Shown one piece after another: positions 277 through 46,038 of a stretch of DNA of 64,000 nucleotides. The stretch covers positions 1-64,000 of the forward strand of contig NZ_WVUD01000014.1 in NCBI RefSeq assembly GCF_009856865.1, given 5' to 3'. The notes under the pieces were generated by a model. That model was not told the origin of the DNA. It ran no database searches and was given only the letters and a program-made list of their open reading frames with translations. Origin of the DNA: Solidesulfovibrio aerotolerans. Its GTDB lineage: Bacteria; Desulfobacterota; Desulfovibrionia; Desulfovibrionales; Desulfovibrionaceae. The position numbers and the translations under genes were made by a program. Position 1 is the first letter of the stretch, and each line of letters begins with the position of its first letter.

Positions 277-362
277 CGGGGGGTCCGGGGGGATCATCCC
301 CCAGACCCCACCAGGGCAGAGCCCTGGTGGGGTCTGGGGCAAAGCCCCAGCCGCCGGAGGCA
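277..362 (-). repeat. Dispersed 3'-UTR repeat copy R1
   Basis: On the minus strand this reads CCTCCGGCGGC, then a GGGGC..GCCCC hairpin, an AGACCCCACC..GGTGGGGTCT hairpin, then the core GGGGGATGATCCCCC followed by GGACCCCC. It begins within 2 bp of the stop codon of the macro-domain gene and lies in that gene's sense direction. Confidence 0.75.
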
Positions 363-363
363 C

Positions 364-930
364 CTACCGCGTAATTTCACCAAATAAATCGTCTGCCGCA
401 CAACGCCAGAGGTCGAAGGCGTGTCTGCCGTGCAGATAGAGGCGTATTTCGGCCACTGCCCCGGCCATAAGCGCCTCGGCCATGGTGCCAAGGGCGATGG
501 GCGCGGCCAGTTCCACGGGATAGCCGTAGACGCCGGTGGACACGGCCGGGAAGGCGATGGTGGAAAGGTTGTTCTCTGCGGCCCGGGCCAGGGAGGCGGC
601 ATAGGCCGAGCGCAGGGCTTCGGGTTCGCCCTGATTGCCGCCGCGCCAGATGGGGCCGACGGTGTGGATGATAAAGCGGGCGGGCAGCTCAAAGCCGGGG
701 GTGATGACGGCCCCGCCGGCCGGCAGGTGGCCGATTTGGGCGATAATTTCGCGGCAGGCGGCGGGCAGTTTTGGTCCGGCGGCGCGGTGGATGGCTCCGT
801 CCACGCCGCCGCCGCCGGCCAGGGCGGCATTGGCGGCGTTGACGATGGCGTCGGCGTCGTCAAGGGTGATATCGCCTTCAATGAGGCGCAGCGTTCCGGG
901 GCCGAGGGCGAAGCTGGCGGATTGGGGCAT
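364..930 (-). CDS. Macro-domain protein (ADP-ribose/O-acetyl-ADP-ribose hydrolase family)
   Basis: A 188-residue single macro domain. The family binds ADP-ribose and often removes O-acetyl or ADP-ribosyl groups in the cytosol. The family signature GDITLDDADAIVNAANAAL lies near the N-terminus, followed by a glycine-rich GGGGVDGAIHRAAG loop, and the second ligand loop AFPAVSTGVYGYP is near residue 130. I start at the ATG at 930 because GGAGG sits 5 nt upstream; a TTG 12 nt earlier has no such site. It is the last gene of a minus-strand run after pspF and an M16 peptidase (about 20 nt after the peptidase). A repeat copy follows directly after its stop. The family is clear; the physiological substrate is not. 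Confidence 0.9.
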   Translation of the reverse strand: MPQSASFALGPGTLRLIEGDITLDDADAIVNAANAALAGGGGVDGAIHRAAGPKLPAACREIIAQIGHLPAGGAVITPGFELPARFIIHTVGPIWRGGNQGEPEALRSAYAASLARAAENNLSTIAFPAVSTGVYGYPVELAAPIALGTMAEALMAGAVAEIRLYLHGRHAFDLWRCAADDLFGEITR

Positions 931-949
931 GGGGGCCTCCAAAGGGCGG

Positions 950-2209
950 CTAGGGAAGGGCGGCGGTTGGTCCCATGATGCACAGACCGGTATTGGGCTG
1001 GGTGAAGGCGGTCCGGGCGGCGTCGGCCACGTCGGCCACGGTCACGGCATCCAGGGCGGCGGCGGTTTCCTCGATGGGAATGTGGCGATGAAACAGCAAA
1101 ATGTTGCGAGCCAGCCGCATCATGCGGTTTTCGGTGGATTCCGCGCCAAGATAGAGCAGCCCTTTTAGGTGCTCGCGGGTGTGGTCGAGTTCCTCGGCGG
1201 CCACGGCTCCGTCGGCCACGGCGGCCAGTTCGGCGGCGACGACTTTGAGGAGTTCGCCGGTGCGCTCCGGGTCCACGGCGGCCTGGATTTCCAGCAGTCC
1301 GGTGTCGGCCAGGCCGTTGACGCCGGCGTAGATGGAATAGGCCAGCCCGCGTTTTTCGCGCACTTCCTGAAACAGGCGCGAGGACATGTTGCCGCCAAGC
1401 AGCGTGGCCAGCAGCGTGTGGATGAAGCGGTCGGGGCTGGAGTTGCCCACGGACGGGTAGGCCAGGATGACGTGGTTTTGTTCCCAATCGCGGCGCAGGG
1501 CGATTTTGGGCGGCGTGTAGAGGCCGGCCGGCTTGGTCGGTGTGCTGGTTACGGCGGCAAGCGAGCCGAAGGCGGCGTCGGCCAGATCGGTGAGCGCCGC
1601 ATGGTCGATGGCACCGGCGGCCACTACGGTTATGGCATCGGGGCGGTAGTGGCTGCGTCGCCACTGGGCCAGGGAGGCGGCTGTGACGGCGGAGACCGAG
1701 GCCGGCGTGCCGGTGATGGAATGGGCCAGGGCGGCGTTTTCCCAGGCAGCGGCCCAGAAATCCTCGTGGACCTTTTCTTCGGGCGTTTCCTCGACCATGG
1801 AAATTTCTTGCAGGATAACGGCCTGTTCGCGGCCGAGTTCCTCGGGGTCGATAAGCGGATTGAGGACGATATCGCTTAAGATATCAAAGGCGCGGGCCAG
1901 ATGGGCGTCCATGACCCGGATATAAAAACAGGTGGCCTCACGGGAGGTAAAGGCGTTGGACAGGCCGCCCAGGGTGTCGAGTTCCTTGGCAATGGTCAGG
2001 GCGTCGCGCCGGGTGGTGCCTTTAAAGGCCATGTGCTCCATAAGGTGGGCCATGCCTTCCTGGCCCGGGGCTTCGTGGCGCGAGCCGGCTTCGATCCACA
2101 GGCCAAGGCTGATGGTCTTGGACTCGGGCATGCGTTCGGTGACGACGCGTACGCCGTTTGGCAGGCGGGTGACGCGGGAGTGGCTGTCAAATTCGGTAGT
2201 TTGGCGCAT
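950..2209 (-). CDS. M16 family zinc peptidase (processing-peptidase-like)
   Basis: A 419-residue M16 metallopeptidase. The inverted zinc motif HLMEH is present at residues 55-59, so the zinc ligands and catalytic Glu58 look intact; the third ligand is expected in the Glu-rich stretch near residues 130-140 (EISMVEETPEEK). The usual two-lobed architecture follows, with the second-lobe R/Y region around FQEVREKRGLAYSIYAG. Length is normal for bacterial single-chain M16 peptidases of the mitochondrial processing-peptidase branch (PqqL/YmxG type). No signal peptide is seen, so it is probably cytosolic. It starts 9 nt after pspF ends and probably shares its transcript. The substrate is unknown. Confidence 0.9.
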   Translation of the reverse strand: MRQTTEFDSHSRVTRLPNGVRVVTERMPESKTISLGLWIEAGSRHEAPGQEGMAHLMEHMAFKGTTRRDALTIAKELDTLGGLSNAFTSREATCFYIRVMDAHLARAFDILSDIVLNPLIDPEELGREQAVILQEISMVEETPEEKVHEDFWAAAWENAALAHSITGTPASVSAVTAASLAQWRRSHYRPDAITVVAAGAIDHAALTDLADAAFGSLAAVTSTPTKPAGLYTPPKIALRRDWEQNHVILAYPSVGNSSPDRFIHTLLATLLGGNMSSRLFQEVREKRGLAYSIYAGVNGLADTGLLEIQAAVDPERTGELLKVVAAELAAVADGAVAAEELDHTREHLKGLLYLGAESTENRMMRLARNILLFHRHIPIEETAAALDAVTVADVADAARTAFTQPNTGLCIMGPTAALP

Positions 2210-2218
2210 GGCCTGGGG

Positions 2219-3364
2219 CTACGGGGCTTTGGACGCGGCGTCAAGAGCGGCGGCATACTTGCGATATAGGCCCCGCATCTGGTGATAGGTCAGACCAAGA
2301 AGTGCGGCCGCCTTGCGCTGATTGCCACCGGCCCGGACCAGGGCACCGGCCAGCAGATCAATCTCGAACGCGGCGACGGCTTCGGTCCAGGTGAGGGGAA
2401 TAGGAGAAGAAAGAGAAGATGCCTCTGGCGGCCGGGGGGGATAATCCCCCCCGGACCCCCTTGAAGGGAAAAAGTGGGTTGGGGGGAGGGGAGTAGAAGA
2501 GAAGAGAGAAGAGGCCTCCGGCGGCCGGGGGGATGATCCCCCCGGACCCCCCGAATGGGAGAAGTGGGGTAAGGGGAGGGGGGCGTGGGGGTGGGCGAAG
2601 GGGTCGAGGGTGATGTGGTCGATGCGGGCGGTGGTGGTATGGAGCACGGCGCGTTCGACGACGGTTTTGAGTTCACGGATGTTGCCGGGCCAGGGGTGGG
2701 CGGCGAGGGCGGCCTGGGCGGCGTCGGAGAAGGTGGGCGGCTCGGGGCGGCCGATGGCGGCGGCAAAACGGGCGGCAAAGCGTTCGGCCAGATAGGGGAT
2801 ATCGCCGTGGCGGTGGCGCAGCGGCGGGGCGAACAGCACGGAAAAGGCCAGCCGGTCAAGCAGATCGGGCAGCAGGCGGCCACGGCGCACCAGTTCGCGG
2901 GGATCGACGTTGACGGCGGCAACGATGCGCACATCCACGGCCACGGGCTGGCTGGCCCCCACCCTGTCGATGGACCCGTATTCCACGGCCCGCAGGAGCT
3001 TGCCCTGCACAGCCACGGGCGCGGCTTGGAGTTCGTCGAGAAACAGCGTGCCGCCATCAGCGGTTTCAAAGCGTCCGGGGCGGCGTTTAAGCGCTCCGGT
3101 GAATGCTCCGGCTTCGTGGCCGAAGAGTTCGGCTTCGATGAGTGTTCGCGGCAGGGCGGCCAGATTGACCGGCACATAGGGGCCTTCCCAGCGTGGGGAA
3201 TGGTAGTGCAGGCGCGCGGCGGCCAGCTCCTTGCCGGTGCCGCGTTCGCCGATAAGCAGCGCCGGCCGGTCAACGACTGCGGCGCGGCCGACGTCTTCCA
3301 TAAAGCCGAGGAAGGCGTCGGACTGTCCGAGTGCTTCGGCGAGCCAGGGTGCGTCGGGTGCCAT
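2219..3364 (-). CDS. pspF: PspF-like sigma54 activator with repeat-derived linker insert
   Basis: Sigma54-dependent AAA+ activator of the phage-shock response, 381 residues from the ATG at 3364 (AGAGGT ribosome site upstream; a longer frame to 3448 would run into the promoter region). Walker A GERGTGKE is at residues 39-46, the sigma54-contact loop GAFTGA at 86-91 and Walker B GGTLFLDEL near 107-115. There is no N-terminal receiver domain, as in E. coli PspF, where PspA controls the ATPase directly. A Fis-type HTH (NQRKAAALLGLTYHQMRG) closes the protein. Between the AAA+ domain and the HTH lie about 55 extra residues rich in Pro, Ser and Gly, encoded by two tandem copies of the dispersed repeat. 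It is divergent from pspA. Confidence 0.93.
   Translation of the reverse strand: MAPDAPWLAEALGQSDAFLGFMEDVGRAAVVDRPALLIGERGTGKELAAARLHYHSPRWEGPYVPVNLAALPRTLIEAELFGHEAGAFTGALKRRPGRFETADGGTLFLDELQAAPVAVQGKLLRAVEYGSIDRVGASQPVAVDVRIVAAVNVDPRELVRRGRLLPDLLDRLAFSVLFAPPLRHRHGDIPYLAERFAARFAAAIGRPEPPTFSDAAQAALAAHPWPGNIRELKTVVERAVLHTTTARIDHITLDPFAHPHAPLPLPHFSHSGGPGGSSPRPPEASSLFSSTPLPPTHFFPSRGSGGDYPPRPPEASSLSSPIPLTWTEAVAAFEIDLLAGALVRAGGNQRKAAALLGLTYHQMRGLYRKYAAALDAASKAP
2401..2480 (+). repeat. Dispersed repeat copy R2 inside pspF
   Basis: On the plus strand: a purine tract (GAGAAGAAAGAGAAGATG), then CCTCTGGCGGCC, core GGGGGGGATAATCCCCCCC, then GGACCCCC. It lies inside pspF but antisense to it, unlike the seven copies that follow stop codons. 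Its translation on the minus strand supplies residues resembling GGDYPPRPPEASSL of the linker. Confidence 0.75.
2491..2575 (+). repeat. Dispersed repeat copy R3 inside pspF
   Basis: Second tandem copy in the pspF linker: a purine tract ending GAAGAG, then GCCTCCGGCGGCC, core GGGGGGATGATCCCCCC, then GGACCCCCC. On the pspF strand it encodes GGPGGSSPRPPEASSL, nearly the same peptide as R2, so both copies keep the same reading frame. Confidence 0.78.
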
Positions 3365-3402
3365 GGCGAATTTGACCTCTCTTGCAGCGGAATATGCCAA
3401 TA

Positions 3403-3420
3403 GTTGGCGCAATGCGCAAC
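3403..3420. promoter_or_regulatory. Candidate PspF upstream activator site
   Basis: Imperfect inverted repeat GTTGGCGCA / ATGCGCAAC about 50-70 bp upstream of the sigma54 promoter of pspA, in the pspF-pspA divergent spacer. Enhancer-binding activators of this class bind such dyads upstream of their promoters, and PspF of E. coli also represses itself from this position. The site is assigned by position and symmetry only. Confidence 0.45.
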
Positions 3421-3471
3421 GATAACCCGGCCACTCTGCGCCAACCACCTAAAATAACACCGTCTCTTATT

Positions 3472-3486
3472 TGGCACGCTCTCTGC
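3472..3486 (+). promoter_or_regulatory. Sigma54 promoter of pspA
   Basis: TGGCAC-N6-TGC with the invariant GG (3473-3474) and GC (3485-3486) separated by exactly 10 nt, as required for -24/-12 promoters. It lies 46 bp before the pspA ATG and faces it. With pspF divergent next to it, this is the classic phage-shock control layout. Confidence 0.85.
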
Positions 3487-3532
3487 TTTACTGGCCGGCA
3501 TGGCCGCACAGTCTGCGGCACGGAGGAACGCC

Positions 3533-4210
3533 ATGGGAATTTTCAGCCGCTTCAGAGACATCATCCATTCCAACATCAACGCCATGCTCGACAAGGCTGA
3601 AGAGCCGGAAAAGCTCATTCGGCTCATGATCCAGGAGATGGAGGAGACGCTGGTCGAACTCAAGGCCGATTGCGCCCGCACCATGGCCCAGGCCGCCAAG
3701 ATCGCCCGCGAACACGGCGCGCTGGCCGAACGGGCCGGGCGGTGGGGGCAAAAGGCCGAATTGGCCGTGGACAAGGGCCGCGAGGATCTGGCCCGGGAAG
3801 CGCTTTTGGAAAAGCGCGACATTGAAGCCCGGGCCGATGTTGTGGCCGGGGAATTGGCCGCCGTGGAAGGGCTGGTCGCAGCCTGCCGCGACGACATCGC
3901 CACCCTGGAGGACAAGCTCGTTTCGGCCAAGGAACGCCAGCGCACCTTGCTGGCCCGCCATCTGCGCGCCACCGGCAAAAAGCGCATGCGCGAAGACGTC
4001 TCCCGGGTCGATTCCGCCGACGCCCTGCGCCGTTTCGAGGAATTTGAAAACCGCATCGAGCGTATGGAAGCCGAAGCCGAACTGGCCGGAACCGCGACCT
4101 CGCGCCGCCCGGCCCAGGGCGACAGCCTGGACGCCCGCTTTGACCGCCTGGCCGCCGACGACGACGTCGAACGCGAACTGGCTCGTATAAAGGCCAAGCG
4201 GGTTGGCTAA
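3533..4210 (+). CDS. pspA: Phage shock protein A (PspA/IM30 family)
   Basis: A 225-residue PspA/IM30 (ESCRT-III-like) protein that oligomerises on the inner membrane face under envelope stress and, in the known system, also inhibits PspF. The N-terminal amphipathic start MGIFSRFRDIIHSNINAMLD is typical, and long Ala/Glu/Lys-rich helices fill the remainder (coiled coil about residues 25-190). I chose the ATG at 3533 with GGAGG 7 nt upstream. A sigma54 promoter lies directly before it. A type-2 copy of the dispersed repeat follows its stop, separating it from pspB. Confidence 0.96.
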   Translation: MGIFSRFRDIIHSNINAMLDKAEEPEKLIRLMIQEMEETLVELKADCARTMAQAAKIAREHGALAERAGRWGQKAELAVDKGREDLAREALLEKRDIEARADVVAGELAAVEGLVAACRDDIATLEDKLVSAKERQRTLLARHLRATGKKRMREDVSRVDSADALRRFEEFENRIERMEAEAELAGTATSRRPAQGDSLDARFDRLAADDDVERELARIKAKRVG

Positions 4211-4225
4211 GGGGCGCACGGGGGC

Positions 4226-4310
4226 GCGAGAGAGAAGAAGGCAGAAGAGTCTCCGGCGGCCAAAGGGGTGACCCCTTTGGAATCCCTCCTGGAAGGCAAG
4301 GGGTTAAGGG
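4226..4310 (+). repeat. Dispersed 3'-UTR repeat copy R4 (AAAGGGGTGACCCCTTT core)
   Basis: Starts about 15 nt after the pspA stop and lies in its sense direction. It has the same purine lead (GAGAGAAGAAGGCAGAAGAG) and CTCCGGCGGCC as other copies but a different palindromic core, AAAGGGGTGACCCCTTT, then GGAATCCCTCC and a tail TGGAAGGCAAGGGGTTAA. Copy R8 at 24.95 kb has the same core type. Confidence 0.75.
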
Positions 4311-4424
4311 GGAACGGCGTTGCTCCGGCCGCCGGGGTGAGCACAAGCCCCGGCTCCTCCAAAACGGTTGCGGTGACGGCGTTGCCGCCGTCCCGGCCAA
4401 GCGAGACAATGATAAGGACGCAAC

Positions 4425-5134: not shown

Positions 5135-5540
5135 AGCCGTCACGGCCCAGGATATTGTGATGATAGGAACTAAAAAGTAAGGAGAGGCGTTGATAATAGG
5201 GTATAAAATAGTGAAAAAAAGAACGAGCATGGACAGGAACGGCAGACGAAATCCAGAGGTGGCACTGCAAGGGCGTGTCGCTGAAAAGGTGTTGGCGCTG
5301 GCGGTTGTACCCCGGATCGAAGCCGCTAGAGGGCTTTGCGACGGGAAATAATAAAACAACGCCAGGTAAAAAAGCGGATGAATCCCGCAACATCTTCTGC
5401 AACAGAACAGATACATGCTTGTAAAATCCTGCTGCAAAGGCGGTCAATGTTCATGTAACAAGAGATAGTGTGGGGAATAATTACACAGTTAAACTGACAC
5501 TTGCGTCCTTTGTGCGGTGTTGTTAGACAGACAGATACCA
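5135..5540 (+). other. AT-richer intergenic leader before the chemoreceptor
   Basis: About 400 nt with visibly lower GC than its surroundings and no convincing gene. A weak GG-N10-GC match (TGGCAC at 5260-5265, GC at 5273-5274) and a possible sigma70-like pair (TTGCGT near 5503 and TTAGAC about 16 nt later) could drive the riboswitch-chemoreceptor transcript. Neither is strong. Confidence 0.4.
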
Positions 5541-5622
5541 ATAAGGCCACCCCTGCCGTGAGGCAGGTCCGGAAAGCCACGGGTCTCGGACGTTTGTCCC
5601 GAGACAGCCGGGCCGCTGGGCA
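5541..5622 (+). ncRNA. GEMM-type cyclic dinucleotide riboswitch (c-di-GMP-I class)
   Basis: The stretch follows the GEMM-I plan: AAGGCCACC, a 6-bp hairpin CCTGCC-GTGA-GGCAGG capped by a GNRA tetraloop, then GGAAAGCCACGGGTCTC, a second stem closed by GAGAC, and AGCCGGGCCGCT. AAAGCC..ACGGG and AGCCGGG are the most recognisable conserved blocks. It ends about 18 nt before the chemoreceptor ATG. The family senses c-di-GMP or, in some relatives, cGAMP. The first block reads GGCCACC rather than the usual GGCAAACC, and the segment after the first hairpin reads GTCCGGAAAGCC rather than GGACGCAAAGCC, so it is a divergent member and its ligand cannot be inferred. Confidence 0.75.
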
Positions 5623-5639: not shown

Positions 5640-7688
5640 ATGCGGGTTTCCATCTCGACCAAAGTCATGACCTTGGTCATTGCTTCAGTCGTCGCGACCG
5701 TGGCCATCATCCAGTGCGTTGCCTTTAGCAGCGTGCGCAACGGATACAAGGCCATTACCAGCCAGGCTGTCCGCAGTTATCTCAATGTGTTCAATCGCCA
5801 AGTTGGGGACTACAAGGACACCTATCTGGACATGGCCCGCACCCAGGCGTCGCGGCCAACCATTGTTGACGCCATCCTGGCCGGCAATGCCGACCGCCTG
5901 CGCGAATTGGGACAAATGGTTCTGTCCGGCGGCAAAGTCGATCTGGTCGTTTTCACCGACGCCAAGGCCACGGTGGTCGCCCGGGCGCATACGGACAAGG
6001 CCGGGGACAACATCGGCAACCAGGAAGGCATCAAACGCGCCCTGGCCGGGGAGTCCGTCAGCCTGTTCGAGCCCGGCAACACCGTGGGTTTCTCCCTGCG
6101 CGCCTACGCTCCGGTCAAAAAAGACGGCGTCGTCGTCGGTGTGGTCATCATCGGCCAGGACGTGGCCAACAATACCGCCCTGGTGGACAGCGTCAAAAGG
6201 GATCTCGGGGCCGAGGCCACGATATTTTTCGGCGACACCCGCGTTTCCACCTCCCTTCTGATCGATGGCAAACGGGCCGTTGGCACCAAACTCGACAATC
6301 AGGCCATCCTGGAAGCCGTCCTGCGGCAGGGGAAAACCTTTTTTGGTGAAAACCGCATTTTTGGCCGCGAATTTCGCACCGCCTACGAACCGCTTAAAAA
6401 CGGCGAAACCATCGTAGGCATGGTGTTTATCGGCCTGGACATCACCGAAGCCCTGGCCGCTCGCGACGCAATCATTTTGCAGATCGGGCTGGCTGGCCTG
6501 GGCAGCATGGTCGTCTTTGCCGTTCTGTCCTGGCTGTTTGCGCGTGTGCTGACCAGACCGCTTTTGGCCTGCATGGCGTTCGCCCGGGCCGTGTCCAAGG
6601 GGGAAACCAACCAGGTCCTGGACGTCTCCCGCAAGGACGAAACCGGCGTCCTGGCCAAGGCGCTTACGGCCATGGCCGGCGACATCCGCTGCCGTATGGA
6701 TGAAGTGGCCCAGGCCAAGGAACTGGCCGAGGAAGAGGCCCAGCGCGCCCGGGCCGAGGCGGCCAAGGCCGACGAAGCCTGCCGGATGGCCGAAAATGCC
6801 AAGGTCGAGGGCATGATCCATGCGGCCGGGCGCATCGAGAGCGTGGTCGAGGCGGTGACTGCCTCGTCTGAGCAGCTGGCCGCCCAGATCGAACAATCCA
6901 GCCGGGGGGCCGAGGACCAGTCAAAGCAGGTGGCCGAAGCCGCCGGTTCCATGGATCAGCTCAATTCCACCGTGTTGGAGGTGGCCAAGAACGCCTCCCA
7001 GGCCGCCGATTCCGCCGACGCCGCCCGCACCAAGGCCGAGGAAGGGGCGGCCGTGGTCGATGCCGTGGTCAAGGGCATCGCCACCGTGGCCGATCAGGCC
7101 CGCACGCTCAAAGACGACATGGGCGCGCTTGGGCAAAAGGCCGAAGGCATCGGGGCCATCATGGACGTTATTTCCGATATCGCCGACCAGACCAATCTGC
7201 TGGCCTTGAATGCTGCCATTGAAGCCGCCCGGGCCGGCGATGCCGGGCGCGGGTTTGCCGTGGTTGCCGACGAAGTGCGCAAGCTGGCCGAAAAGACCAT
7301 GGCCGCCACCAAGGAAGTCGGCGCGGCCATCAAGGGCATCCAGGACGGCACCCAGCAAAATGTGGCCGGATTTGACAAGGCCGTGCAAAACGTCGAGGCC
7401 GCCACCACCATGGCCCGCCGCTCCGGCGAAGCCCTGACAGCCATCGTCGGACTTGTCGAAGTCGTGGCCGATCAGGTACGCTCCATTGCAACTGCGGCCG
7501 AGGAACAGTCCGCTGCGGCCGAAGAGATCGGTCGCACCGTGGATCGCATCAACCGTATTTCCGGCGAAACCGCCCAGGCCATGCACGCGTCTGCCGACGC
7601 CGTGGACAGTCTGGCCGGGCAGGCCAAGAATCTGCACGGGCTTGTGCTCGACATGCAAAACGAGGGGTCGGGAAAAGCCCTTGCCTGA
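5640..7688 (+). CDS. Methyl-accepting chemotaxis protein, periplasmic Cache sensor
   Basis: 682 residues. TM1 at about 9-31, a large periplasmic sensor (about 35-270) of double-Cache type with blocks such as [15 protein letters not shown] and [16 protein letters not shown]2 at about 280-300, HAMP to about 355, a coiled-coil region, then the signalling domain with the conserved hairpin tip [18 protein letters not shown]. No C-terminal CheR-tethering pentapeptide is seen. ATG follows GAGGGGGA. It sits between two pspB/pspC pairs and is preceded by a GEMM-type riboswitch, so expression is probably tuned by a cyclic dinucleotide. The ligand is unknown. Confidence 0.93.
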
Positions 7689-9698: not shown

Positions 9699-10586
9699 TT
9701 GAGAAGCACTCTAAAAAAGCGTACTCGACCCGGCGTGCTCAACCATACCTTCCTGCACCTTCCCGGCCTTGGCCCGTCCACCGAACGCCGCCTGTGGGCC
9801 GCCGGCATCCTGACCTGGGACGATTTCCTCAATGCCCCGCAACCGCCCCTGGCTTCCGTCAAAGTCCCCCTGTGGCGCGACGAACTGCTCGCCTCCAAAG
9901 AGCGCCTGGACGCCGCAGACGCCGACTGGTTCGCCAGCCGCCTGCCCCCGGCCGAAGCCTGGCGGCTGTTCTACGATTTTCGCGACCAGCTCGCCTGCGT
10001 TGATATCGAAACCGACGGCACGCCCCAAAACGAAGTCACTGCCGTGGCCTTCTACGACGGCATAAATTGCGCCCGCACCTACGCCCACGGCAAAAATCTT
10101 CACGATTTCGTGGCCGATATCACCGCCAGCAAAGTCCTCGTCACCTTCAACGGCCGCTGCTTCGACGCGCCCATCCTCACCTCCCACCTCGGTGCCAGAC
10201 TCCCCAAAGCCCATATCGATCTGCGAAACGTCTTATGCGGCATCGGCGTCAAAGGGGGCCTTAAAAAATGCGAGGAACGCTACGGCGTGGATCGCGGCGA
10301 TCTGACCGGAGCCGATGGCTACCTGGCCGTACTCCTGTGGCGCGAATACGCCCGCCACGGCCACCCGGCCGTCCTGGAAACACTTCTCGCCTACAACGCC
10401 GCCGATGTCCTGGCCCTGCCCGTGCTGCTGGCCCACGCCATAAACGAACTGGTCGGCAAAACCCCCTTTGCCGCAACACACAGCCTGCCCATCCCCGCCC
10501 CCGGCGACAATCCGCACCGCCCCGATGCCGACGTGCTGCGCCGCGTCTGGCACGAACGCCGCCCCGGCGGCGGCTGGGGACGCTAG
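9699..10586 (+). CDS. RNase-H-fold 3'-5' exonuclease-like protein (YprB family)
   Basis: Up to 295 residues. The C-terminal 170 residues match the DnaQ/RNase-H-like YprB family: motif I ACVDIETDG (DxE), motif II TFNGRCFDAPIL and motif III YNAADVLAL, giving the acidic residues needed for two metal ions. A short N-terminal helical part contains HLPGLGPSTERRLWAAGI, a helix-hairpin-helix-like segment. The TTG at 9699 and the GTG at 9735 are both possible starts and neither has a clear ribosome site. The family acts on nucleic acid; the natural substrate is unknown. A repeat copy begins right after the stop. Confidence 0.75.
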   Translation: MRSTLKKRTRPGVLNHTFLHLPGLGPSTERRLWAAGILTWDDFLNAPQPPLASVKVPLWRDELLASKERLDAADADWFASRLPPAEAWRLFYDFRDQLACVDIETDGTPQNEVTAVAFYDGINCARTYAHGKNLHDFVADITASKVLVTFNGRCFDAPILTSHLGARLPKAHIDLRNVLCGIGVKGGLKKCEERYGVDRGDLTGADGYLAVLLWREYARHGHPAVLETLLAYNAADVLALPVLLAHAINELVGKTPFAATHSLPIPAPGDNPHRPDADVLRRVWHERRPGGGWGR

Positions 10587-10690
10587 GGAAGAGAAGACTG
10601 GGGCGTTGCCCCAGACCCCACCAGGAGAGGCTCTGCCTCTGCCTTACCCTCTCCGCCGGGGGGATGATCCCCCCGGACCCCCCGATTGGG
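10587..10690 (+). repeat. Dispersed 3'-UTR repeat copy R5
   Basis: Begins at the stop codon of the nuclease-like gene, sense orientation: GGAAGAGAAGACT, a GGGGCGTTGCCCC hairpin, AGACCCCACC, then CTCCGCC and the core GGGGGGATGATCCCCCC followed by GGACCCCCC. Confidence 0.75.
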
Positions 10691-11096: not shown

Positions 11097-11173
11097 AGGG
11101 GTCCGGGGGGATCATCCCCCCGGTGGGGTTCGGGGCAAAGCCCCGATTCTCTTTCCTTCCTTCCGTCACACAC
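11097..11173 (-). repeat. Dispersed 3'-UTR repeat copy R6
   Basis: On the minus strand: directly after the cytidylyltransferase stop, a purine tract (GGAAGGAAGGAAAGAGAAT), a CGGGGCTTTGCCCCG hairpin, AACCCCACC, core GGGGGGATGATCCCCCC and GGACCCC. Sense orientation to the gene it follows. Confidence 0.75.
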
Positions 11174-12325
11174 TCACTCTCCAACCACATACGCTCCCTG
11201 ATAAAACGCCTCGCGCTCCATCCCGTCCGTGCCCTCCAGAAACCGCACCCGCTGGGCTGGGATCAGGCAGCTGGCAGCGTCGATGGGTGAGCCGAGGTTG
11301 CTGCGGTCGACGGGTGTTGGCGGCTGGTGCAGCGGCGAATCGCGGGCGATGACGCGCCAGCAGGGGCTGTGTTGGTAGACGGGCAGGCAGTGGGCGGTAT
11401 TGGCGGTGGCGATGTAGCGCGGCGACCAGGTGTGGTCCTGGGCCGTGGGGTTTAGGAAATGGAGTTCGGGCAGATCGCTGACGAGGCGGGCGGTAAACAG
11501 GGGTGGGGCGGGTTTCTGGAGCACCTGCGGCGGTTGGCCCGGATCAGCCAGGGCTTTGGGGCCGAGCCAGTCCAGGAAAGCTTCGGGGTCGGTCCCAAGG
11601 GGAGTTTGCACGAACCAGGGACCGATGGTGTGGGTGGCGAGGGGCGTTTGGCGGTAGCTGGCTCCGGCCTGGATTTTTTGGGCCAGGGCCAGATCGGCGG
11701 CGGTGTCGATATCGATGGTTTCCGGCAGTCCGATATCGAGGCGGTATTCGCGTTCGCCCAGGCGGTAGCCCAGGTACATGGCGTGGCAGTTCGGGGTTTC
11801 GCGCCGCCAGAGCATGTAGCTGGTGGAGGAAAACCGCAGCAGATTGGGGAAGCCGGCAAAGACCGGGGCATAGCCGCCGTCGGTCGGATAATAGTAGTCG
11901 CGGTCCCAGTATTGTTCGGGGCGAACGGCCTGGACGCGCAGGGGGTAGCCGGTGTGGATGGCGGCGGCGGCTTCGCGCAGGCGGTCGCAGCGGCGAAAGG
12001 GGAAGGTGGGCATAAAAAGGCCGCACCAGTCAAGATCGGGGCGATTGTCCTGGTAGTGCTCGGCCACCTGGGTCAGGGGGGAGTCGTCGCCGGCCAGGGA
12101 GTCTGGGCGCATAAGGACCGAGACGCTGGACCCCGGGTAGCGGCTGCGCACAAGCCCGGCCACGACCGGACTTTCGGTGGACACGGTGACATCGCAAAAA
12201 ACACCGCTTTCAAGCAGCACGTCCAGCGTCCAGCAGAGCAGCGGCTTGCCGGCCAGTTCGGTGATGTTTTTGCCGGGCAGGCGTTTGGACCCCATCCGGG
12301 CCGGGACCAGGGCTCCGATACGCAT
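11174..12325 (-). CDS. CMP-sugar synthase-like cytidylyltransferase with extra C-terminal domain
   Basis: 383 residues. The N-terminal 230 match the NeuA/KdsB-type cytidylyltransferase fold: nucleotide-binding start IGALVPARMGSKRLPGKNI, then LAGKPLLCWTLD, and a late DIDTAADLALA. Such enzymes activate an acidic sugar with CTP for transfer to a surface glycan. The last 150 residues form a separate segment I do not recognise. Start lies 3 nt after the end of the fusion glycosyltransferase gene, so it is the last gene of a three-gene glycan operon. Which sugar is activated cannot be told. Confidence 0.82.
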   Translation of the reverse strand: MRIGALVPARMGSKRLPGKNITELAGKPLLCWTLDVLLESGVFCDVTVSTESPVVAGLVRSRYPGSSVSVLMRPDSLAGDDSPLTQVAEHYQDNRPDLDWCGLFMPTFPFRRCDRLREAAAAIHTGYPLRVQAVRPEQYWDRDYYYPTDGGYAPVFAGFPNLLRFSSTSYMLWRRETPNCHAMYLGYRLGEREYRLDIGLPETIDIDTAADLALAQKIQAGASYRQTPLATHTIGPWFVQTPLGTDPEAFLDWLGPKALADPGQPPQVLQKPAPPLFTARLVSDLPELHFLNPTAQDHTWSPRYIATANTAHCLPVYQHSPCWRVIARDSPLHQPPTPVDRSNLGSPIDAASCLIPAQRVRFLEGTDGMEREAFYQGAYVVGE

Positions 12326-24052: not shown

Positions 24053-24739
24053 GTGGCCGTCATCATGGACGGCAACGGGCGTTGGGCCACCATGCGCGGG
24101 CTGCCCCGCAGCGAGGGACACCGGGCCGGCACCGAAGCCGCCCGGGCCATTGTCACGCGCTGCCGGGAGTTGGGTGTCGGCCATCTGACCCTCTACACGT
24201 TTTCCAAGGAGAACTGGGGGCGGCCCGCTGACGAGGTCAAATTCCTCTTCGATCTGCTGGTGCGGTTTCTCACGCGCGAACTGGACACGCTGCTGACCCA
24301 ATCCATCCGCTTTGTCGTGCTCGGCGAAATGGGCGCGCTGCCCCTGGCCACCCGCAAGGTGTTGGGTCATGTCATTGCCAAAACAGCCGGCTGCACCGCC
24401 ATGACACTCAATCTGGCGCTGAATTATTCCGGCCGCGACGAGATTTTGCGGGCCTGCCGCCGTCTCGTCGCCACGGGCGCGCCCCCCGAAGCCATCACCG
24501 AAGAAGCCTTGGCCGCCGAACTCTACACCGCCGGCCAGCCCGATCCGGACCTCATCATCCGCACCAGCGGCGAAATGCGCCTGTCCGGCTATCTGCTGTG
24601 GCAGTCGGCCTACAGCGAATTTGCCTTCCCCGAGACGCTGTGGCCGGATTTTTCCCCGGCCCATCTCGACGCCATTCTGGACGACTACCAAAACCGCACC
24701 CGCCGCTTCGGCCTCACCGGCGAGCAGATCGGCTCCTGA
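24053..24739 (+). CDS. uppS: Isoprenyl (undecaprenyl) diphosphate synthase
   Basis: 228 residues from the GTG at 24053. MDGNGRWA carries the catalytic Asp, then the helix GHRAGTEAARAIV, YTFSKENWGRP, and the conserved DLIIRTSGEMRLSGYLLWQSAYSE-type end region. The enzyme makes the C55 lipid carrier of the cell wall. Family members normally have LPRH before VAVIMDG. Those residues are encoded here upstream of the GTG, where no ATG, GTG or TTG occurs in frame, but a CTG at 24020 with GGAG upstream does. The true start may therefore be non-canonical. A repeat copy follows its stop. Confidence 0.93.
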   Translation: MAVIMDGNGRWATMRGLPRSEGHRAGTEAARAIVTRCRELGVGHLTLYTFSKENWGRPADEVKFLFDLLVRFLTRELDTLLTQSIRFVVLGEMGALPLATRKVLGHVIAKTAGCTAMTLNLALNYSGRDEILRACRRLVATGAPPEAITEEALAAELYTAGQPDPDLIIRTSGEMRLSGYLLWQSAYSEFAFPETLWPDFSPAHLDAILDDYQNRTRRFGLTGEQIGS

Positions 24740-24884
24740 CCGGCGCGCGCGCGAGCGAGAGCGAGAGCGAGAAAGAAGTAGCGAGAAGAGAAGAGAAGAG
24801 AAGAGAAGGCAGAAGATGCCTCCGGCGGCCGGGGGGATGATCCCCCCGGACCCCTGCACTTGGAGAAGTTTTTAAGGGGTTGCG
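24740..24884 (+). repeat. Dispersed 3'-UTR repeat copy R7 with long purine tract
   Basis: Directly after the uppS stop and in its sense direction. About 70 nt of GA-rich simple repeats (GAGCGAGAGC and AGAAGAG units), GGCAGAAGATG, CCTCCGGCGGCC, core GGGGGGATGATCCCCCC, GGACCCCTG and the tail TTGGAGAAGTTTTTAAGGGG. Confidence 0.8.
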
Positions 24885-24928: not shown

Positions 24929-25000
24929 CCTTTACCTCTTGCCTTCCAGGAGGGATTCCAAAGGGGCCACCCCTTTGGCTGCCGGAGGCTCTCCCTCTCT
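24929..25000 (-). repeat. Dispersed repeat copy R8, overlapping a reading frame end
   Basis: Minus strand: GAGAGCCTCCGGCAGCC, core AAAGGGGTGGCCCCTTT, GGAATCCCTCC, TGGAAGGCAAGAGGTAAAGG. Same core class as R4. It encodes the last 20 or so residues and the stop of the DUF1330 protein. It faces copy R7 45 nt away in inverted orientation. Confidence 0.75.
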
Positions 25001-25282
25001 CCCTTCCGTCAGCAGCACGCGATAATCGCAGCCAAGGTGCCTGTGCCGGCTCGCTTCCTGGTAGGCGGGACTGCAATAAAAGGCCCTGGCTTCTTCCCGA
25101 GAGGCGAATTCAAGGACAACGACGCCCTGGGCGTCAGGGCCTTCCAGCGTCTCGCAGGGACCGTAAACGACATGGGGCGTGAAGGCATGCCCCTGCATGG
25201 CTTCTGGAGCGAGTTGCTTGTAACGGTCGTACTCGGTTGCATCCCGCATTTTTTCGCGAATAAATATCAGATAAGCAGCCAT
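24932..25282 (-). CDS. DUF1330 family protein with repeat-derived C-terminus
   Basis: 116 residues. The first 95 match the DUF1330 fold, a small ferredoxin-like alpha/beta-barrel dimer: MAAYLIFIREKMRDATEYDRY, VVVLEFASREEARAFYCSPAY, and a final LGCDYRVLLTEG. No catalytic function is established for the family. Family members normally end near that point. Here translation continues through PPAAKGVAPLESLLEGK, which is dispersed repeat R8 read in frame, and the repeat also supplies the stop. Confidence 0.82.
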   Translation of the reverse strand: MAAYLIFIREKMRDATEYDRYKQLAPEAMQGHAFTPHVVYGPCETLEGPDAQGVVVLEFASREEARAFYCSPAYQEASRHRHLGCDYRVLLTEGREGEPPAAKGVAPLESLLEGKR

Positions 25283-41598: not shown

Positions 41599-41818
41599 CG
41601 GATAATCGGGCTTAACACCAAGCAATCATAGGCGTTGTCTCTGACAGGTGGCGGCAGATTTTGCCGCCGGGCCAAAGCACCCTTGGCCGGGCGTCACGCA
41701 GTCTCCACACAGCCGTCACCACCCTTTCAAATCTCCCGGGCAAAAAGCGAGCATACGGTTCCTGCGGGATGGCCCGCGCCACGCAGTCATTACAACCGAG
41801 GCCAAGGGAGAACGCGCC

Positions 41819-42214
41819 ATGGGACAGCTCGACGTGGAACGGATCAGCGAAGTGTTGTGCGACATGCTCGAAACCCTGAAAGGCAAATCGCGTGAGTCGC
41901 TGGATATAATGGCCAGGGAAGAGACGGTCTATGCCGACGTGGCCGACCGGGCGGCTGTTGAGTCCGACCGGCACATGGCCCTTATCATGGGCGAGCGCGA
42001 CCGTCGCTGCATCAGCGAAATCCATGAAGCCCTGACCCGGGTTAAAGACGGTGAATACGGCATCTGCCAGGAATGCGGCGAAGACATCGGTCTGGCCCGG
42101 CTGCGGGCCAAGCCCACGGCTTCGTTGTGCGTCCACTGCCAGTCGCTGCTCGAAGACAGTGGCCGGCCGTATTTGCAGGGCCTGCGGGGCGAATCGGCTT
42201 TTCTGGAAGAATAG
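41819..42214 (+). CDS. DksA/TraR-type zinc-finger protein
   Basis: 131 residues. A helical N-terminal part (coiled-coil region about 1-75) ends in the four-Cys finger CQECGEDI..CVHCQ, the DksA/TraR C4 type. DksA binds RNA polymerase through the secondary channel and tunes transcription, often with ppGpp. The family also includes small stress-linked paralogues; which one this is cannot be told. ATG at 41819 after AAGGGAGAA. Confidence 0.92.
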   Translation: MGQLDVERISEVLCDMLETLKGKSRESLDIMAREETVYADVADRAAVESDRHMALIMGERDRRCISEIHEALTRVKDGEYGICQECGEDIGLARLRAKPTASLCVHCQSLLEDSGRPYLQGLRGESAFLEE

Positions 42215-42380
42215 GGGGCGCACGCATCCACGTACGTGTGTTGTGGTGGCAGGAGAGGCAAAATACGGGGTGTTTAATCCCGGCAAGTCCTCTCGTGCAT
42301 TGCCGAGCCCGCCACGAGACGTTTTGGATTGGGGCGCAGTGGATGCAGCCGCGCCGCTGGCTGACGCAGCGGGCCGGCCC

Positions 42381-43487
42381 TTAAATGGTCGGCTGGGCCG
42401 GTAAAACGAGCCGGGCCAGCCCGCCCCCCTGTGCGCCCCGGGCCAGGGTCAGGCTGCCGCCCATGTCCTCGGCCCGTCGCCGGGCCATGGGCAGCCCCAT
42501 ACCGACGCCCACGGCTTTTGTGGTCGCAAAGGGGTCAAAGGCAAAGGCCAGGACGGCTTCGTCCGGTCCTGGCCCGTTGTCGGTCACGGTCACGGACACG
42601 GCGGTGTCCAGCCAGGCAAAGGTCAGGCCCACCACCCCGTTCCCTGCCGCCGGGCCGTTGGGGCCGCACAGGGCTTCCAGGGCGTTGGCGCACAGTTCGG
42701 TCAGGATTTCGGTGACAAGCGATGCATCGGTGAGCAGTTGCCCTGTGGCCACGGTGAGGGCCAGCCGGGCCGTTGCCCCGGTGCGAAGTGCTGCCGCCCC
42801 AAAGGCCCGGGTGGCCAGGTCGGCCGGATCGCACAGCGCCGGCGTCGGTTCCCGCCGCCGGGCATAGGCCGAGACCGCCTGCACCACCGCTTCCAGCCGT
42901 TTGGCACCATCCAAAATCATGGTCAGGGCTTCGGCCTCGGGATCGTCGGCCGCCTTGCCCCGCAGCAGGCGTCCGGCAAAGCCGCCGACGACCATCAGCG
43001 GGTTTCGGATCTGATGGGCCACGGCCAGGGAAAACTGGCCAAGGCTCTCGATGCGCTCCCGCTGGACGGCCTGGATGCCGAGCAGCATGGACCGTTCGCG
43101 CTCGTGGAGACGATAAATTTCGGTGACGTCGGTGATTTCGATAAGAATGCCAAAAATCTTGTGGTTTTCCAATAAAAGCGAACCCGACAGGCGAAAGCGG
43201 CGCAGGCTGCCGTCGGGATGGGCATAGGCGATGCCCACGGGCTCGGGTTTGCGGCTGTGCTTGAGCGGTGCGGCCAGAAACCGGGCCACCCGCCGGGGTG
43301 CGTCGACACGGGCGATGATGGCGGCGGACAGTCCCGGATCGGCCAGTTCGCCGGCGCTGTAGCCCAAAAGGGCCGTGGCGGCGTCATTGGCGGCGTAGCA
43401 AAGGCCCTGGCTGTTGAGAATGACCACGCCGGCGGAAAAGCTGCCGAGCAGATCGTGAAAATAGTTGGAATTGGCAAAGATCAACAT
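42381..43487 (-). CDS. PAS-domain sensor histidine kinase
   Basis: 368 residues from the ATG at 43487 (GAGG upstream). PAS domain about 12-130 (GVVILNSQGLCYAANDAATALLG), then HisKA with LAVAHQIRNPLMVVGGFAG (His-Gln-Ile-Arg-Asn-Pro, phospho-acceptor) and HATPase with LCANALEALCG, TDNGPGPDE and GVGMGLPMARR. No membrane helix, so soluble. Divergent from the internal-repeat protein gene. Confidence 0.9.
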   Translation of the reverse strand: MLIFANSNYFHDLLGSFSAGVVILNSQGLCYAANDAATALLGYSAGELADPGLSAAIIARVDAPRRVARFLAAPLKHSRKPEPVGIAYAHPDGSLRRFRLSGSLLLENHKIFGILIEITDVTEIYRLHERERSMLLGIQAVQRERIESLGQFSLAVAHQIRNPLMVVGGFAGRLLRGKAADDPEAEALTMILDGAKRLEAVVQAVSAYARRREPTPALCDPADLATRAFGAAALRTGATARLALTVATGQLLTDASLVTEILTELCANALEALCGPNGPAAGNGVVGLTFAWLDTAVSVTVTDNGPGPDEAVLAFAFDPFATTKAVGVGMGLPMARRRAEDMGGSLTLARGAQGGGLARLVLPAQPTI

Positions 43488-43677
43488 ACGGGCCTCGCAG
43501 GGTATGGATTGGCCGTGCGAGTATGGGCCGGGCGGGTTACGGCCCGGTGACGCGGCGGGAAACGACGTTTTTGTCGGGTGAGAAGACGCTTTTGTCCGGC
43601 AGCGGGTGACCAAGCGTTGGCAACAGGCCGGAAAAATTGTGGAAGGCAAATGGACCGCAATTTGCTAAAGAGCCGTT

Positions 43678-44628
43678 ATGGACACCCTTGATACCCGCTA
43701 CGGCTCCCTGTCGGCTGACGGCCCGGTGGAACGCCACCCGGACGGCGGCCTGCGCGCAGCCTTCCTCGTCGCCCCATTCGCCCTGGACACCACCGCCGGC
43801 CGGCTCACTCCGCAACATTCCAGTGACGACTCCCGGCGCATGTTCAAGCCGCCTTTGACCTTTCATCCCAACGGGCAGGTCCGTTCCGTGCCGCTGGAAA
43901 CCCGCACCGTGGTGCATACCCCGGTCGGGCCGCTGCCGGCCGAACTGATCACCTTTCACGAAAACGGGGCGATTGCCCGGGTGTTTCCCTTAAACGGCAA
44001 GCTGTCCGGCTATTGGACCGAGGCCGACGAGGGCGGGCTGGCCGAGCCCCTGCGCATCGCCACCCCCATCGGAACCCTGGCCGCCAAATTCGTGGCCGTG
44101 GCCTTTGACCCGGCCGGCCGGCTGCGCAGCCTGACCCTGTGGCCCGGGGAGGAAATCGTGGTGCGCGCGCCGTGCGGCAACGTTCCGGTGCGCCTGGGTT
44201 TGTCCTTTCATGCCGGCGGCACGGTGTGCTCGCTGGAACCGGCCCGGCCCCTGGAGGTATCCACCCCGGTCGGCTCGATCTGGGCCTATGACCCCGATGC
44301 TGTCGGCATCAGCGGCGATGATAATTCCCTGGTCTTTGATGGCGACGGGCAGGTGGTGCGGGTGGCCACCGTGCGCTCGAGCGTTCTGGCGCAGTTGCCG
44401 GACGGTTCGCGCCAGGAGCTTTCCCCGCTGGTGCGCGACAGCATCTGCGGCGACGGCGACCAGGAACTGACAGCGCTTATCCTGGAATTTGCCGCCGACA
44501 GCCTGACCGCCCGCCACGGGGTTGCCGCGCCCGTGGCCGTTTTCCCCCGGGCCGGCGTCCATTATGCGACCCGCCCCTTCGTGGCCGCCTTTGCCCTGAG
44601 CTTCGCGCCTAAACAATGTTCCATGTAG
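43678..44628 (+). CDS. Uncharacterised protein with about four internal repeats
   Basis: 316 residues, no family recognised. Blocks spaced about 45-50 residues apart have the pattern TPxGxL..F..xGx(I/L).(S/R)V.P: for example TPVGPLPAELITFHENG, TPIGTLAAKFVAVAFDPAG, APCGNVPVRLGLSFHAGG and TPVGSIWAY..SLVFDGDG. The pattern suggests a repeated beta-strand structure, loosely like MORN or YwqK-type repeats. No signal peptide or membrane segment. ATG at 43678. Confidence 0.7.
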   Translation: MDTLDTRYGSLSADGPVERHPDGGLRAAFLVAPFALDTTAGRLTPQHSSDDSRRMFKPPLTFHPNGQVRSVPLETRTVVHTPVGPLPAELITFHENGAIARVFPLNGKLSGYWTEADEGGLAEPLRIATPIGTLAAKFVAVAFDPAGRLRSLTLWPGEEIVVRAPCGNVPVRLGLSFHAGGTVCSLEPARPLEVSTPVGSIWAYDPDAVGISGDDNSLVFDGDGQVVRVATVRSSVLAQLPDGSRQELSPLVRDSICGDGDQELTALILEFAADSLTARHGVAAPVAVFPRAGVHYATRPFVAAFALSFAPKQCSM

Positions 44629-44639
44629 GCCGCTTTCCC

Positions 44640-44670
44640 TTGACGCCCCCCCCTTTCGGACTGATATAAG
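44640..44670 (+). promoter_or_regulatory. Candidate sigma70 promoter of the Tim44-like gene
   Basis: TTGACG (44640-44645) and GATATA/TATAAG (44663-44670). The spacing is 17 nt with GATATA and 19 nt with TATAAG. The predicted leader is about 170 nt. Sequence match only. Confidence 0.5.
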
Positions 44671-44843
44671 AAAGCATCCAGAACCGAAGCCGGCCGCAAG
44701 CCTTCTTGGGCTGCGGCTGCGGCGCGGGCAAGGCCTGCTTCCCTGGCGATGTGCACGGAATCCTTCCGTTGCGCTGACGCTGGCGGGGCCGGCGCACTGC
44801 ATCTTTCGGGCGAGCGCACCGGGATGCACCAAGGAGGTCTTTC

Positions 44844-45752
44844 GTGGGTAAAACCACAAGCGTCTTGCTGGCTGTGTTTTTTTTGCTTTTTGCAAGCGTG
44901 GAGTTTGCCGCAGCCAAACGGCTCGGCGGGGGCGGCTCCATGGGCAACCGGCAGTCGTTTAGTTCATCCACCACGCCTCGTCCGTCCATGGCCCCGCCAG
45001 CGGGCGGGTTTACCTCGCCGCAATCGGGCGCAGCCAATCCGGGCGGCGGCTTTTTCTCCCGTCCGGGGATAGGCGGCATGTTCGGCGGTCTGCTTGTGGG
45101 CGGGCTTTTAGGCTCGATGCTTTTTGGCGGCGGCCATGGCGGCGGCGGTCCGGGCCTGCTCGATATGCTGCTGATTGGCGGCGGGTTATTTTTGCTGTTT
45201 AAGTTCCTGCGCGCCCGTCGCGCGGCCACGGCCGGCGGGCCGGGCGTTGGCCAGCCCATGGCCCGGTCCTACGAGTCCGAGCCGTTGGGGCAGGCGAGGC
45301 AGGCGGCGGCCGGCGGCTGGAGCAATCTCGGGGCAGACCCGAGCGGCCCGGCTGGCCCGACGGGGCCGGATCTGCCGCCCGGCTTTGACACCGAGGAGTT
45401 CCTGGCCGGGGCCAAGGCGCTGTTCGCCCGGCTGCAACGCTCCTGGAGCAGCCGCAATCTGGCTGACATCGAAACCTTTGCCACCCCGGCTTTTATGGCC
45501 GATGTGCGTAAGCAAGCGGCAGACGACCCGACGCCGACACCGACCGACGTCTTGCTGGTGGACGCCAAGCTGTTGGAAGTGCGCAGTCAGGGCGGAATGA
45601 CCATCGCTTCGGCCTATTTCGATACGCTGCTGCGCGAAGACCCCAAGGCCGGGCAACCCGAGCAGGTGCGTGAAGTCTGGCATTTCGTGCGCCGCGAAGG
45701 TGTTGCGGGCGACGCCTGGAAGCTCGACGCCATCCAGCAGATGGACGCGTAA
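44844..45752 (+). CDS. Tim44-like domain protein, membrane or exported
   Basis: 302 residues from a GTG with AAGGAGG 7 nt upstream. N-terminal hydrophobic signal (SVLLAVFFLLFASVEFAAAK), a Ser/Gly/Pro-rich low-complexity linker with a glycine-rich stretch (GGMFGGLLVGGLLGSMLFGGG) and a second hydrophobic segment (LLDMLLIGGGLFLLFKFL), then a C-terminal Tim44-like domain (FLAGAKALFARLQRSWSSRN, LLLVDAKLLEVRSQG, REVWHFVR). Bacterial Tim44-like proteins are membrane-associated, of uncertain role. Followed by a clear terminator. Confidence 0.87.
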   Translation: MGKTTSVLLAVFFLLFASVEFAAAKRLGGGGSMGNRQSFSSSTTPRPSMAPPAGGFTSPQSGAANPGGGFFSRPGIGGMFGGLLVGGLLGSMLFGGGHGGGGPGLLDMLLIGGGLFLLFKFLRARRAATAGGPGVGQPMARSYESEPLGQARQAAAGGWSNLGADPSGPAGPTGPDLPPGFDTEEFLAGAKALFARLQRSWSSRNLADIETFATPAFMADVRKQAADDPTPTPTDVLLVDAKLLEVRSQGGMTIASAYFDTLLREDPKAGQPEQVREVWHFVRREGVAGDAWKLDAIQQMDA

Positions 45753-45783
45753 CGGGCACTGCGGCCGACTGGCCGCCGACGCC

Positions 45784-45816
45784 AAAAGGGAGGGGGACGG
45801 CCCCCTCCCTTTTTTT
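45784..45816 (+). terminator. Terminator after the Tim44-like gene
   Basis: AAAAGGGAGGGGG-ACGG-CCCCCTCCC followed by a run of T. About 30 nt after the stop. Confidence 0.9.
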
Positions 45817-45905
45817 GTGCCCGCGCCGCAGCAACGGTGATGTCCGTCAAGTGCAAACAGCGTTTCCCTATCCATAGCCGACCAGATTGCCAGCCAGCGC
45901 CAAGA

Positions 45906-46038
45906 ACCCCTTAAAAACATCTCCAGTTGGGGGGTCCGGGGGGATCATCCCCCCGGCCGCCGGAGGCTCTTCTGCCTTCTGCCTTCTGCCTTCTATCTTC
46001 TGCCTTCTTCTCTCTCTCGCCCCCTGGCCGCCGGGCGG
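45906..46038 (-). repeat. Dispersed 3'-UTR repeat copy R9 with 7-bp tandem repeat
   Basis: Minus strand, directly after the AAA ATPase stop and in its sense: GCGAGAGAGAGAAGAAGGCAG, then several units of AGAAGGC, GCCTCCGGCGGCC, core GGGGGGATGATCCCCCC, GGACCCCCC, CTGGAGATGTTTTTAAGGGG. The 7-bp unit AGAAGGC is repeated about four times, which suggests slippage growth of the purine tract. Confidence 0.8.

Follow-up and report, generated by a model that had tools for sequence, protein, structure and literature searches.

A mosaic palindromic repeat past stop codons of Solidesulfovibrio aerotolerans: partly inherited addresses, changing cores and a candidate role for gene conversion

The first 64,000 nucleotides of contig NZ_WVUD01000014.1 (C41, 89,529 bases) of Solidesulfovibrio aerotolerans, whose draft genome comprises 4.6 Mb in 161 contigs, harbor copies (R1 to R9, Table 1) of a dispersed palindromic repeat; this whole stretch is referred to as the window. 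In each unit, a purine tract precedes a constant head (GCCTCCGGCGGCC), which is followed by a palindromic core of exchangeable type and by a tail specific to that core. The comparison with related species revealed partial inheritance of the set of gene ends occupied by copies, but mostly not of the cores found there. Since the relatives often have a repeat at the corresponding place whose central part differs, overwriting in place is suggested, and we consider it reasonably probable that this is a mosaic repeat of 3' untranslated regions (UTRs), similar to repetitive extragenic palindromic sequences (REPs) and bacterial interspersed mosaic elements (BIMEs), rewritten by ectopic gene conversion. 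It has long been asked whether transposition or gene conversion drives the evolution of bacterial palindromic repeats, and here the two can be separated by counting.

Shared addresses and changing cores

Genes were called with a simple purpose-made codon-score caller, orthologs were paired as reciprocal best hits, and gene ends too near the end of a stretch were excluded. The 16 (out of 21) species pairs having at least 15 ortholog pairs are those reported here, with uncorrected Fisher p values. In 12 of these 16 pairs, a copy at a gene end was associated with a copy at the orthologous end (p < 0.05). As for S. aerotolerans itself, the numbers of gene ends bearing a copy in both genomes, in S. 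aerotolerans only, in the other species only and in neither were 5, 6, 1 and 96 with G007 (p = 2.4e-5); 7, 7, 3 and 123 with G008 (p = 2.0e-6); 4, 3, 2 and 28 with G010 (p = 6.8e-3); 4, 3, 3 and 63 with G004 (p = 1.0e-3); and 3, 2, 2 and 41 with G005 (p = 5.4e-3). The cores located at these shared addresses were identical in 1/5, 0/7, 0/4, 0/4 and 0/3 cases, respectively. Core retention drops from 12 of 14 shared addresses in the closest pair, G005/G008 (97.4% median protein identity; 13 of 14 within one mismatch), to 4 of 49 in 13 diverged species pairs, where about 3.4 identities are expected by random pairing (sum of the chance values), while the address is partly inherited. The single address shared by G007 and G013 carries an identical core (1/1).

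The pair G005/G008 was also checked by hand over 300 kb of each genome, 180 kb of which aligned, the copies present only in G008 being outside the comparison. Of the 27 G005 copies with a recognizable core, 20 are matched in G008 by a copy of the same type (in some cases with a small deletion or one or two changes) and two have been swapped; of the remaining ones, two have no clear G008 copy (one has apparently decayed and one lies beside a rearranged stretch) and three were unaligned or outside the check. At one swapped locus (G005 22288, G008 32928), the 23 nt before and the 30 nt after the inner core are identical, and the inner core itself (7 nt) is CCTAAGG versus GATGATC, two sequences differing in 5/7 bases, both palindromic and both embedded in a G5/C5 stem. 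One of the two core types, GGGGGGATGATCCCCCC, is common in the genus, and the other version differs by one base from GGGGGCCTGAGGCCCCC, which is also common. The identical stretch is immediately preceded by a 6-nt gap and some substitutions; according to our reading of the alignment, the copy is in frame with the upstream gene in both species and forms its C-terminus. At the second swapped locus, the core and the tail have been replaced. Point mutation into another existing type is an unlikely cause of the inner-core change, for which conversion from another copy would be the simplest explanation.

The history of the repeat has probably been as follows. Units with a purine-rich spacer starting at or close past the stop codon, and with a core drawn from a pool of types, would once have spread as non-autonomous elements; ectopic gene conversion would now overwrite the resident copies where they stand, with other copies as donors and with the head and the core flanks as shared homology. 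On transcription, each copy would give a hairpin in the 3' UTR, preceded by a purine spacer without structure; there it would be tolerated and might slow 3' exonucleases. If this is true, such repeats would be poor locus markers between species, and parts of proteins (the linker of a regulator, C-termini) could be dictated by a repeat that takes its sequence from elsewhere in the genome.

Alternatively, the repeat might be a still-active non-autonomous transposable element, similar to REP doublets forming hairpins (REPINs) or to miniature inverted-repeat transposable elements, whose old copies are lost and whose new copies, with another core, are inserted at the same preferred or safe gene ends, the contents differing without any conversion. 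We regard this as rather unlikely, even though it would fit the existence of inverted pairs with outward heads (in 17 convergent and 12 tandem gaps), of two interiors having both ends in common and of tandem neighbors with different cores (R2/R3; C161:10996 and 11119), as well as the vacancy of about half of the addresses in a relative. It does not fit the G005/G008 locus at which the inner core has changed while the head and the tail are identical, nor the presence of a copy in the pspF linker of 14/14 genus members. Moreover, neither a clean empty site nor a target duplication was found in three rounds of comparison (G005/G008 included), most gaps being too diverged, and no REP-associated tyrosine transposase (RAYT) was identified among the five Y1 transposases classified out of 15 hits. 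The proposal, made in the preliminary description of the window, of a mobile element that targets terminators is unsupported as worded.

A bolder idea, which appears improbable, is that of fixed addresses with exchangeable cassettes: the constant head would mark a site of exchange, and the hairpin cores would be swapped among copies, possibly in the form of single-stranded DNA, through a dedicated activity and not through ordinary recombination. The PspF linker and the 3' UTRs would thereby be rewritten repeatedly while the positions are kept.

Position and orientation relative to gene ends

The non-random placement claimed in the preliminary description is borne out by the analysis of 1,046 gaps of at least 60 nt from seven species (looser scan), where the copies per kb are 1.07 in convergent, 0.53 in tandem and 0.15 in divergent gaps, and solitary copies are stop-proximal and biased toward the sense direction. 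A sense copy lies within 110 nt past the gene end in 62/684 cases in S. aerotolerans, versus 8/684 in the mirrored test upstream of starts, and in 79/993 versus 20/993 cases in six relatives taken together; the mirrored test also catches the far arms of inverted pairs. The head is located 20-45 nt from the stop in 45 of the 62 S. aerotolerans cases. Of the 47 solitary copies in tandem gaps, 38 are in sense and nine antisense (p = 2.5e-5); the 38 sense copies all have their head 4-63 nt from the stop and less far from it than from the next start. As for convergent gaps, a solitary copy has its head nearer to the stop of its own gene in 34 of 35 cases. The upstream neighbor is in sense for 66/83 intergenic copies of S. 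aerotolerans (864 kb), a count that is less informative because sense is automatic in a convergent gap. Part of the orientation initially described as strict arises because one arm of each outward inverted pair is in sense by geometry. Hence, when distance and orientation relative to the nearest stop are tabulated on this larger sample, the sense bias and the proximity to stops stand, but strictness does not: nine solitary tandem copies are antisense, and the gaps bearing an exact inverted pair hold one arm in each direction.

A termination role had also been put forward. However, the core is followed by GGACCC, GGAATC or similar, without a U-tract, and the frequency of predicted intrinsic terminators is unchanged at convergent ends (10/76 with a copy versus 29/202 without, p = 1.0), the corresponding values at tandem ends being 3/47 and 60/345 (p = 0.057). 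The terminator counts do not support this role, and a stricter scan also found few terminators in either class. In 12 of the 13 ends having both a copy and a terminator, the T-run lies 103-250 nt past the stop, and the thirteenth is an apparent chance match of the head on an ordinary terminator. It is almost certainly not the case, then, that the repeats are ordinary intrinsic terminators multiplied by sequence similarity: they are GC-rich hairpins at gene ends, as this would demand, but they lack the U-tract past the core, and the separate terminators are found further downstream in 12 of the 13 listed cases.

A barrier at the 3' end formed by the hairpins of the repeat would be a reasonable supposition. 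The broader possibility of a functional 3'-UTR module, in which the purine spacer and the stacked hairpins would protect the mRNA 3' end or limit read-through, with selection keeping the address while the sequence drifts or is exchanged, can be entertained tentatively. It would account for the stop-proximal and sense-biased placement, for the rarity of copies in divergent gaps and for the retention of addresses while cores change; the downstream location of 12/13 co-occurring terminators also implies that the copy would be transcribed. On the other hand, about half of the addresses are vacant in relatives, copies are present in coding sequences too, and terminator frequency at convergent ends is no different. 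Stalling of ribosomes has been reported for Escherichia coli REPs located within 15 nt of the stop (PMC12306157). In our sample, the head lies within 5 nt of the stop in 7/141 cases, which approximates an even spread over 110 nt, and there is therefore no clear avoidance of the reach of the ribosome.

A C/U-rich tract could load Rho. A directional barrier against antisense transcription has been considered, in which RNA arriving from the other side would contain the hairpin and then a C/U-rich tract, and Rho would stop it before the gene. The tract is purine-rich in sense and hence pyrimidine-rich in antisense (a matter of composition only), and the side of the head faces the gene; nevertheless, the far arms of the pairs face the start of the next gene, and this explanation seems decidedly improbable.

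Several observations weigh against rewriting by gene conversion. Four of the 16 species pairs share addresses without significance (G007/G010, p = 0.07; G007/G013, p = 0.09; G010/G004, p = 0.16; G008/G010, p = 1.0, with zero shared addresses), and 21 of 44 S. aerotolerans addresses are vacant in the relative compared. The 49 core comparisons have species and genes in common and so are not independent. For none of the swaps has a donor been identified, no search for one having been made. Repeated loss and reinsertion at favored gene ends would likewise randomize the contents of post-stop addresses. Lastly, the number of heads close to the stop and the terminator counts given above, according to which the copies are no substitute for terminators at convergent ends, belong on the same side.

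Copies in pspF and other coding sequences

In-frame copies were seen in pspF, in the open reading frame (ORF) containing R8 and in one gene of G005/G008. The pspF-like gene of the window adjoins pspA, and its best NCBIfam match is PspF, below the cut-off (402.5 versus 443.55); R2 and R3 correspond approximately to residues 274-314 of the encoded protein. The linker repeat is present in the orthologs of 14/14 genus members (L133-L146) and is in frame in 13, L145 having undetermined bases there; in G007, one stop was reported somewhere within the matched stretch. The cores embedded in pspF vary between species, and these copies represent a control located in coding sequence. The repeat was found in none of the 13 readable pspF orthologs from outside the genus (L147-L160, L152 being unread); L155 contains two short motif matches, unlike the repeat.

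Structure of the repeat unit

The purine tract often ends in GGCAGAAGA, and the purine fraction of the first 24 nt past the stop is 0.80 where a copy is present (head at 34 nt or more) versus 0.48 where it is absent. The stem is flanked by CTCCGGCGGC(C/T) on one side and by GAC/GAA on the other, and the motif 3' of the core is followed by a tail matching the core type. Copies with G-type and A-type cores have differing interiors and a common 3' end, GACGGGAACCACCGTTGCTCCGGCGG, the first 17 bases of which occur, with up to three mismatches, in 21 of 88 copies. Some copies are longer by about 100 bp and include this end; others are solitary 5' parts or inverted pairs. The shared ends and the inverted pairs suggest that the repeat may have been mobile in the past. 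Only two core types had been recognized at first; more exist, since 47 distinct core strings, a few of which are chance hairpins, were counted among 142 post-stop matches from seven species.

The 88 copies, which include at least two apparent chance hairpins, come from a stricter scan of 864 kb of the S. aerotolerans genome (C41 up to position 84,000 and parts of 11 other contigs, most of which were chosen from the list of pattern matches, so that the density in these 864 kb is biased upward). Stem pairing through two-sided changes was observed (5/7 stem pairs, 18 distinct rows, 2/126 non-standard cells); the scan itself demands a perfect stem of at least 5, and hence this was not used as evidence. 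An arm echo, in which the core is followed by GGA and a repetition of the outer arm, was striking by eye and was dropped as not significant (410/5000 shuffles as low).

Among the post-stop cores of G004 (stretches L200-L202 and L247-L255), the most frequent one, (C)AGGGGGAAACTTTTTGAAAAAAGTTTCCCCCT(G), has a far longer stem and accounts for 5 of 13. In the stretches L188-L197 (G005, G008), genes orthologous to those near 24-28.6 kb of the window are followed, past their stops, by arrays of differing short hairpins separated by ACCC.

Relationship with known repeats and their transposases

According to PMC3733652, the REPs of the GTAG and CGTC superfamilies are high-copy palindromes that lie close to ORF 3' ends, for the most part in convergent and unidirectional gaps; they frequently form inverted dimers and are sometimes in frame inside genes, and CCTC is a reported variant of the CGTC tag. 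The repeat described here is likewise a multi-copy palindrome that prefers convergent and tandem gaps near 3' ends over divergent ones (see the densities above), with inverted pairs and some copies in frame within genes. It differs in that no GTAG/CGTC tag adjoins the stem (CCTC occurs in the head, several bases off the stem), the unit is longer, owing to its purine tract, its constant head and the tail specific to each core, one genome has many stem types behind one head and no RAYT has been identified among the transposases classified. The same source describes Rickettsia palindromic elements, which are read in frame inside proteins; most copies of our repeat, in contrast, are located in 3' UTRs. 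With the REPIN/RAYT system (PMC3116915), it shares unit-like inverted pairs and a probable non-autonomous spread, whereas Y1 hits occur here in only 8/14 genus genomes and the five classified out of 15 are all IS200-type. Two inverted palindromes make up the REPIN unit; pairs are frequent here, yet gaps with a solitary copy outnumber those with a pair (47 tandem and 35 convergent versus 12 and 17).

The BIMEs of E. coli are mosaics of a palindrome and other short modules. The present repeat is a mosaic of the same kind, with the difference that its core changes in place at orthologous addresses, the exchanged module being the palindromic core itself. As cited in PMC12306157, Higgins et al. (1988) reportedly proposed gene conversion for REPs.

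Dispersal by a RAYT found no support. The Y1 transposase domain (PF01797) gave 15 hits, distributed in 8 of 14 genus genomes; five of them (L031, L203-L206) were classified, all scoring above the IS200 cut-off and below the RAYT cut-off, and the other ten, several of them fragmentary, were outside this classification. No repeat copies were found in the five classified loci. The genomes G004, G010 and G012 have no PF01797 hit, yet contain 163, 453 and 238 overlapping pattern matches. Another transposase, or one since lost, may have dispersed the repeat.

Abundance and taxonomic distribution

In the S. aerotolerans genome, a pattern composed of the head plus a G-run is matched 142 times in forward and 383 times in reverse orientation (overlapping matches), versus 1 and 0 times for the reversed pattern. 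The head-plus-G-run pattern was matched in 89 of 149 genomes of the family, and the nine genus members among them have 143 to 507 overlapping matches each. A spread beyond the family was discarded, as the 286 outside genomes (of 297) have only 0 to 11 matches each and the reversed pattern reaches up to 8. A literature search found no published description of this repeat, which is a weak indication, most subscription journals being outside the reach of the search.

Organization of the copies in the window

The coordinates of the copies are reported in Table 1.

Table 1. Repeat copies R1 to R9 and the pspF-like gene in the window.
Feature	Position	Strand	Structure and context
R1	277..362	-	head CTCCGGCGGCT, core GGGGCTTTGCCCC, hairpin array; 4 nt past the stop of a Macro-domain gene (364-930, minus)
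R2	2400..2480	+	purine tract, head CTCTGGCGGCC, core GGGGGGGATAATCCCCCCC, tail; antisense within pspF (copy 2423-2452)
R3	2493..2575	+	purine tract, head, core GGGGGGATGATCCCCCC, tail; antisense within pspF (copy 2516-2543)
pspF-like sigma-54 activator gene	2219..3364	-	R2 and R3 encode part of the linker from the AAA lid (residues 183-255) to the helix-turn-helix (331-364)
R4	4226..4310	+	purine tract, head, core AAAGGGGTGACCCCTTT, A-type tail; head 40 nt past the stop of pspA (3533-4210)
R5	10587..10690	+	purine tract, hairpin array, core GGGGGGATGATCCCCCC, without canonical head; directly past the stop of an RNase_H_2 gene (9735-10586)
R6	11097..11173	-	hairpins GGGGCTTTGCCCC and GGGGGGATGATCCCCCC, without canonical head; past the stop of a CTP_transf_3 gene (11174-12325, minus)
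R7	24740..24884	+	long purine tract, head, core GGGGGGATGATCCCCCC, tail TGGAGAAGTTTTTAAGGGG; head 80 nt past the stop of a prenyltransferase gene (24053-24739)
R8	24929..25000	-	head CTCCGGCAGCC, core AAAGGGGTGGCCCCTTT, A-type tail; supplies the ~18 C-terminal residues and the stop codon of a DUF1330 ORF (24932-25282, minus)
R9	45906..46038	-	purine tract, head, core GGGGGGATGATCCCCCC, tail; head 76 nt past the stop of an AAA ATPase gene (46042-47121, minus)

The preliminary description had listed seven copies at stop codons, always in the sense of the gene. The seven stretches contain the described sequences at about the places given, and R1, R4, R7 and R9 have head and core in sense past a stop. 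R5 and R6 are also past stops, in sense and with a GGGGGGATGATCCCCCC core, and depart from the module order in that the head CTCCGGCGGCC is missing. R8, which forms an inverted pair with R7, is in sense; rather than following a stop, it sits in the 3' end of its ORF, with the stop codon within its tail. The word "always" does not hold, as R2 and R3, left out of the seven, are antisense inside pspF and the inverted pairs have antisense arms.

As regards the DUF1330 ORF, its Pfam match ends at residue 94 of 116, and the orthologs of G007 and G005 are shorter. Positions 1-37 of the window resemble, by eye, the tail of a further copy cut by the contig start; such repeats may be what breaks this assembly. 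Among the Rfam 15 families at gathering score, the window contains only a cyclic di-GMP-I riboswitch (5536-5620, plus strand, 51.7 bits), which is not part of the repeat and is located just upstream of the gene called at 5640-7688.

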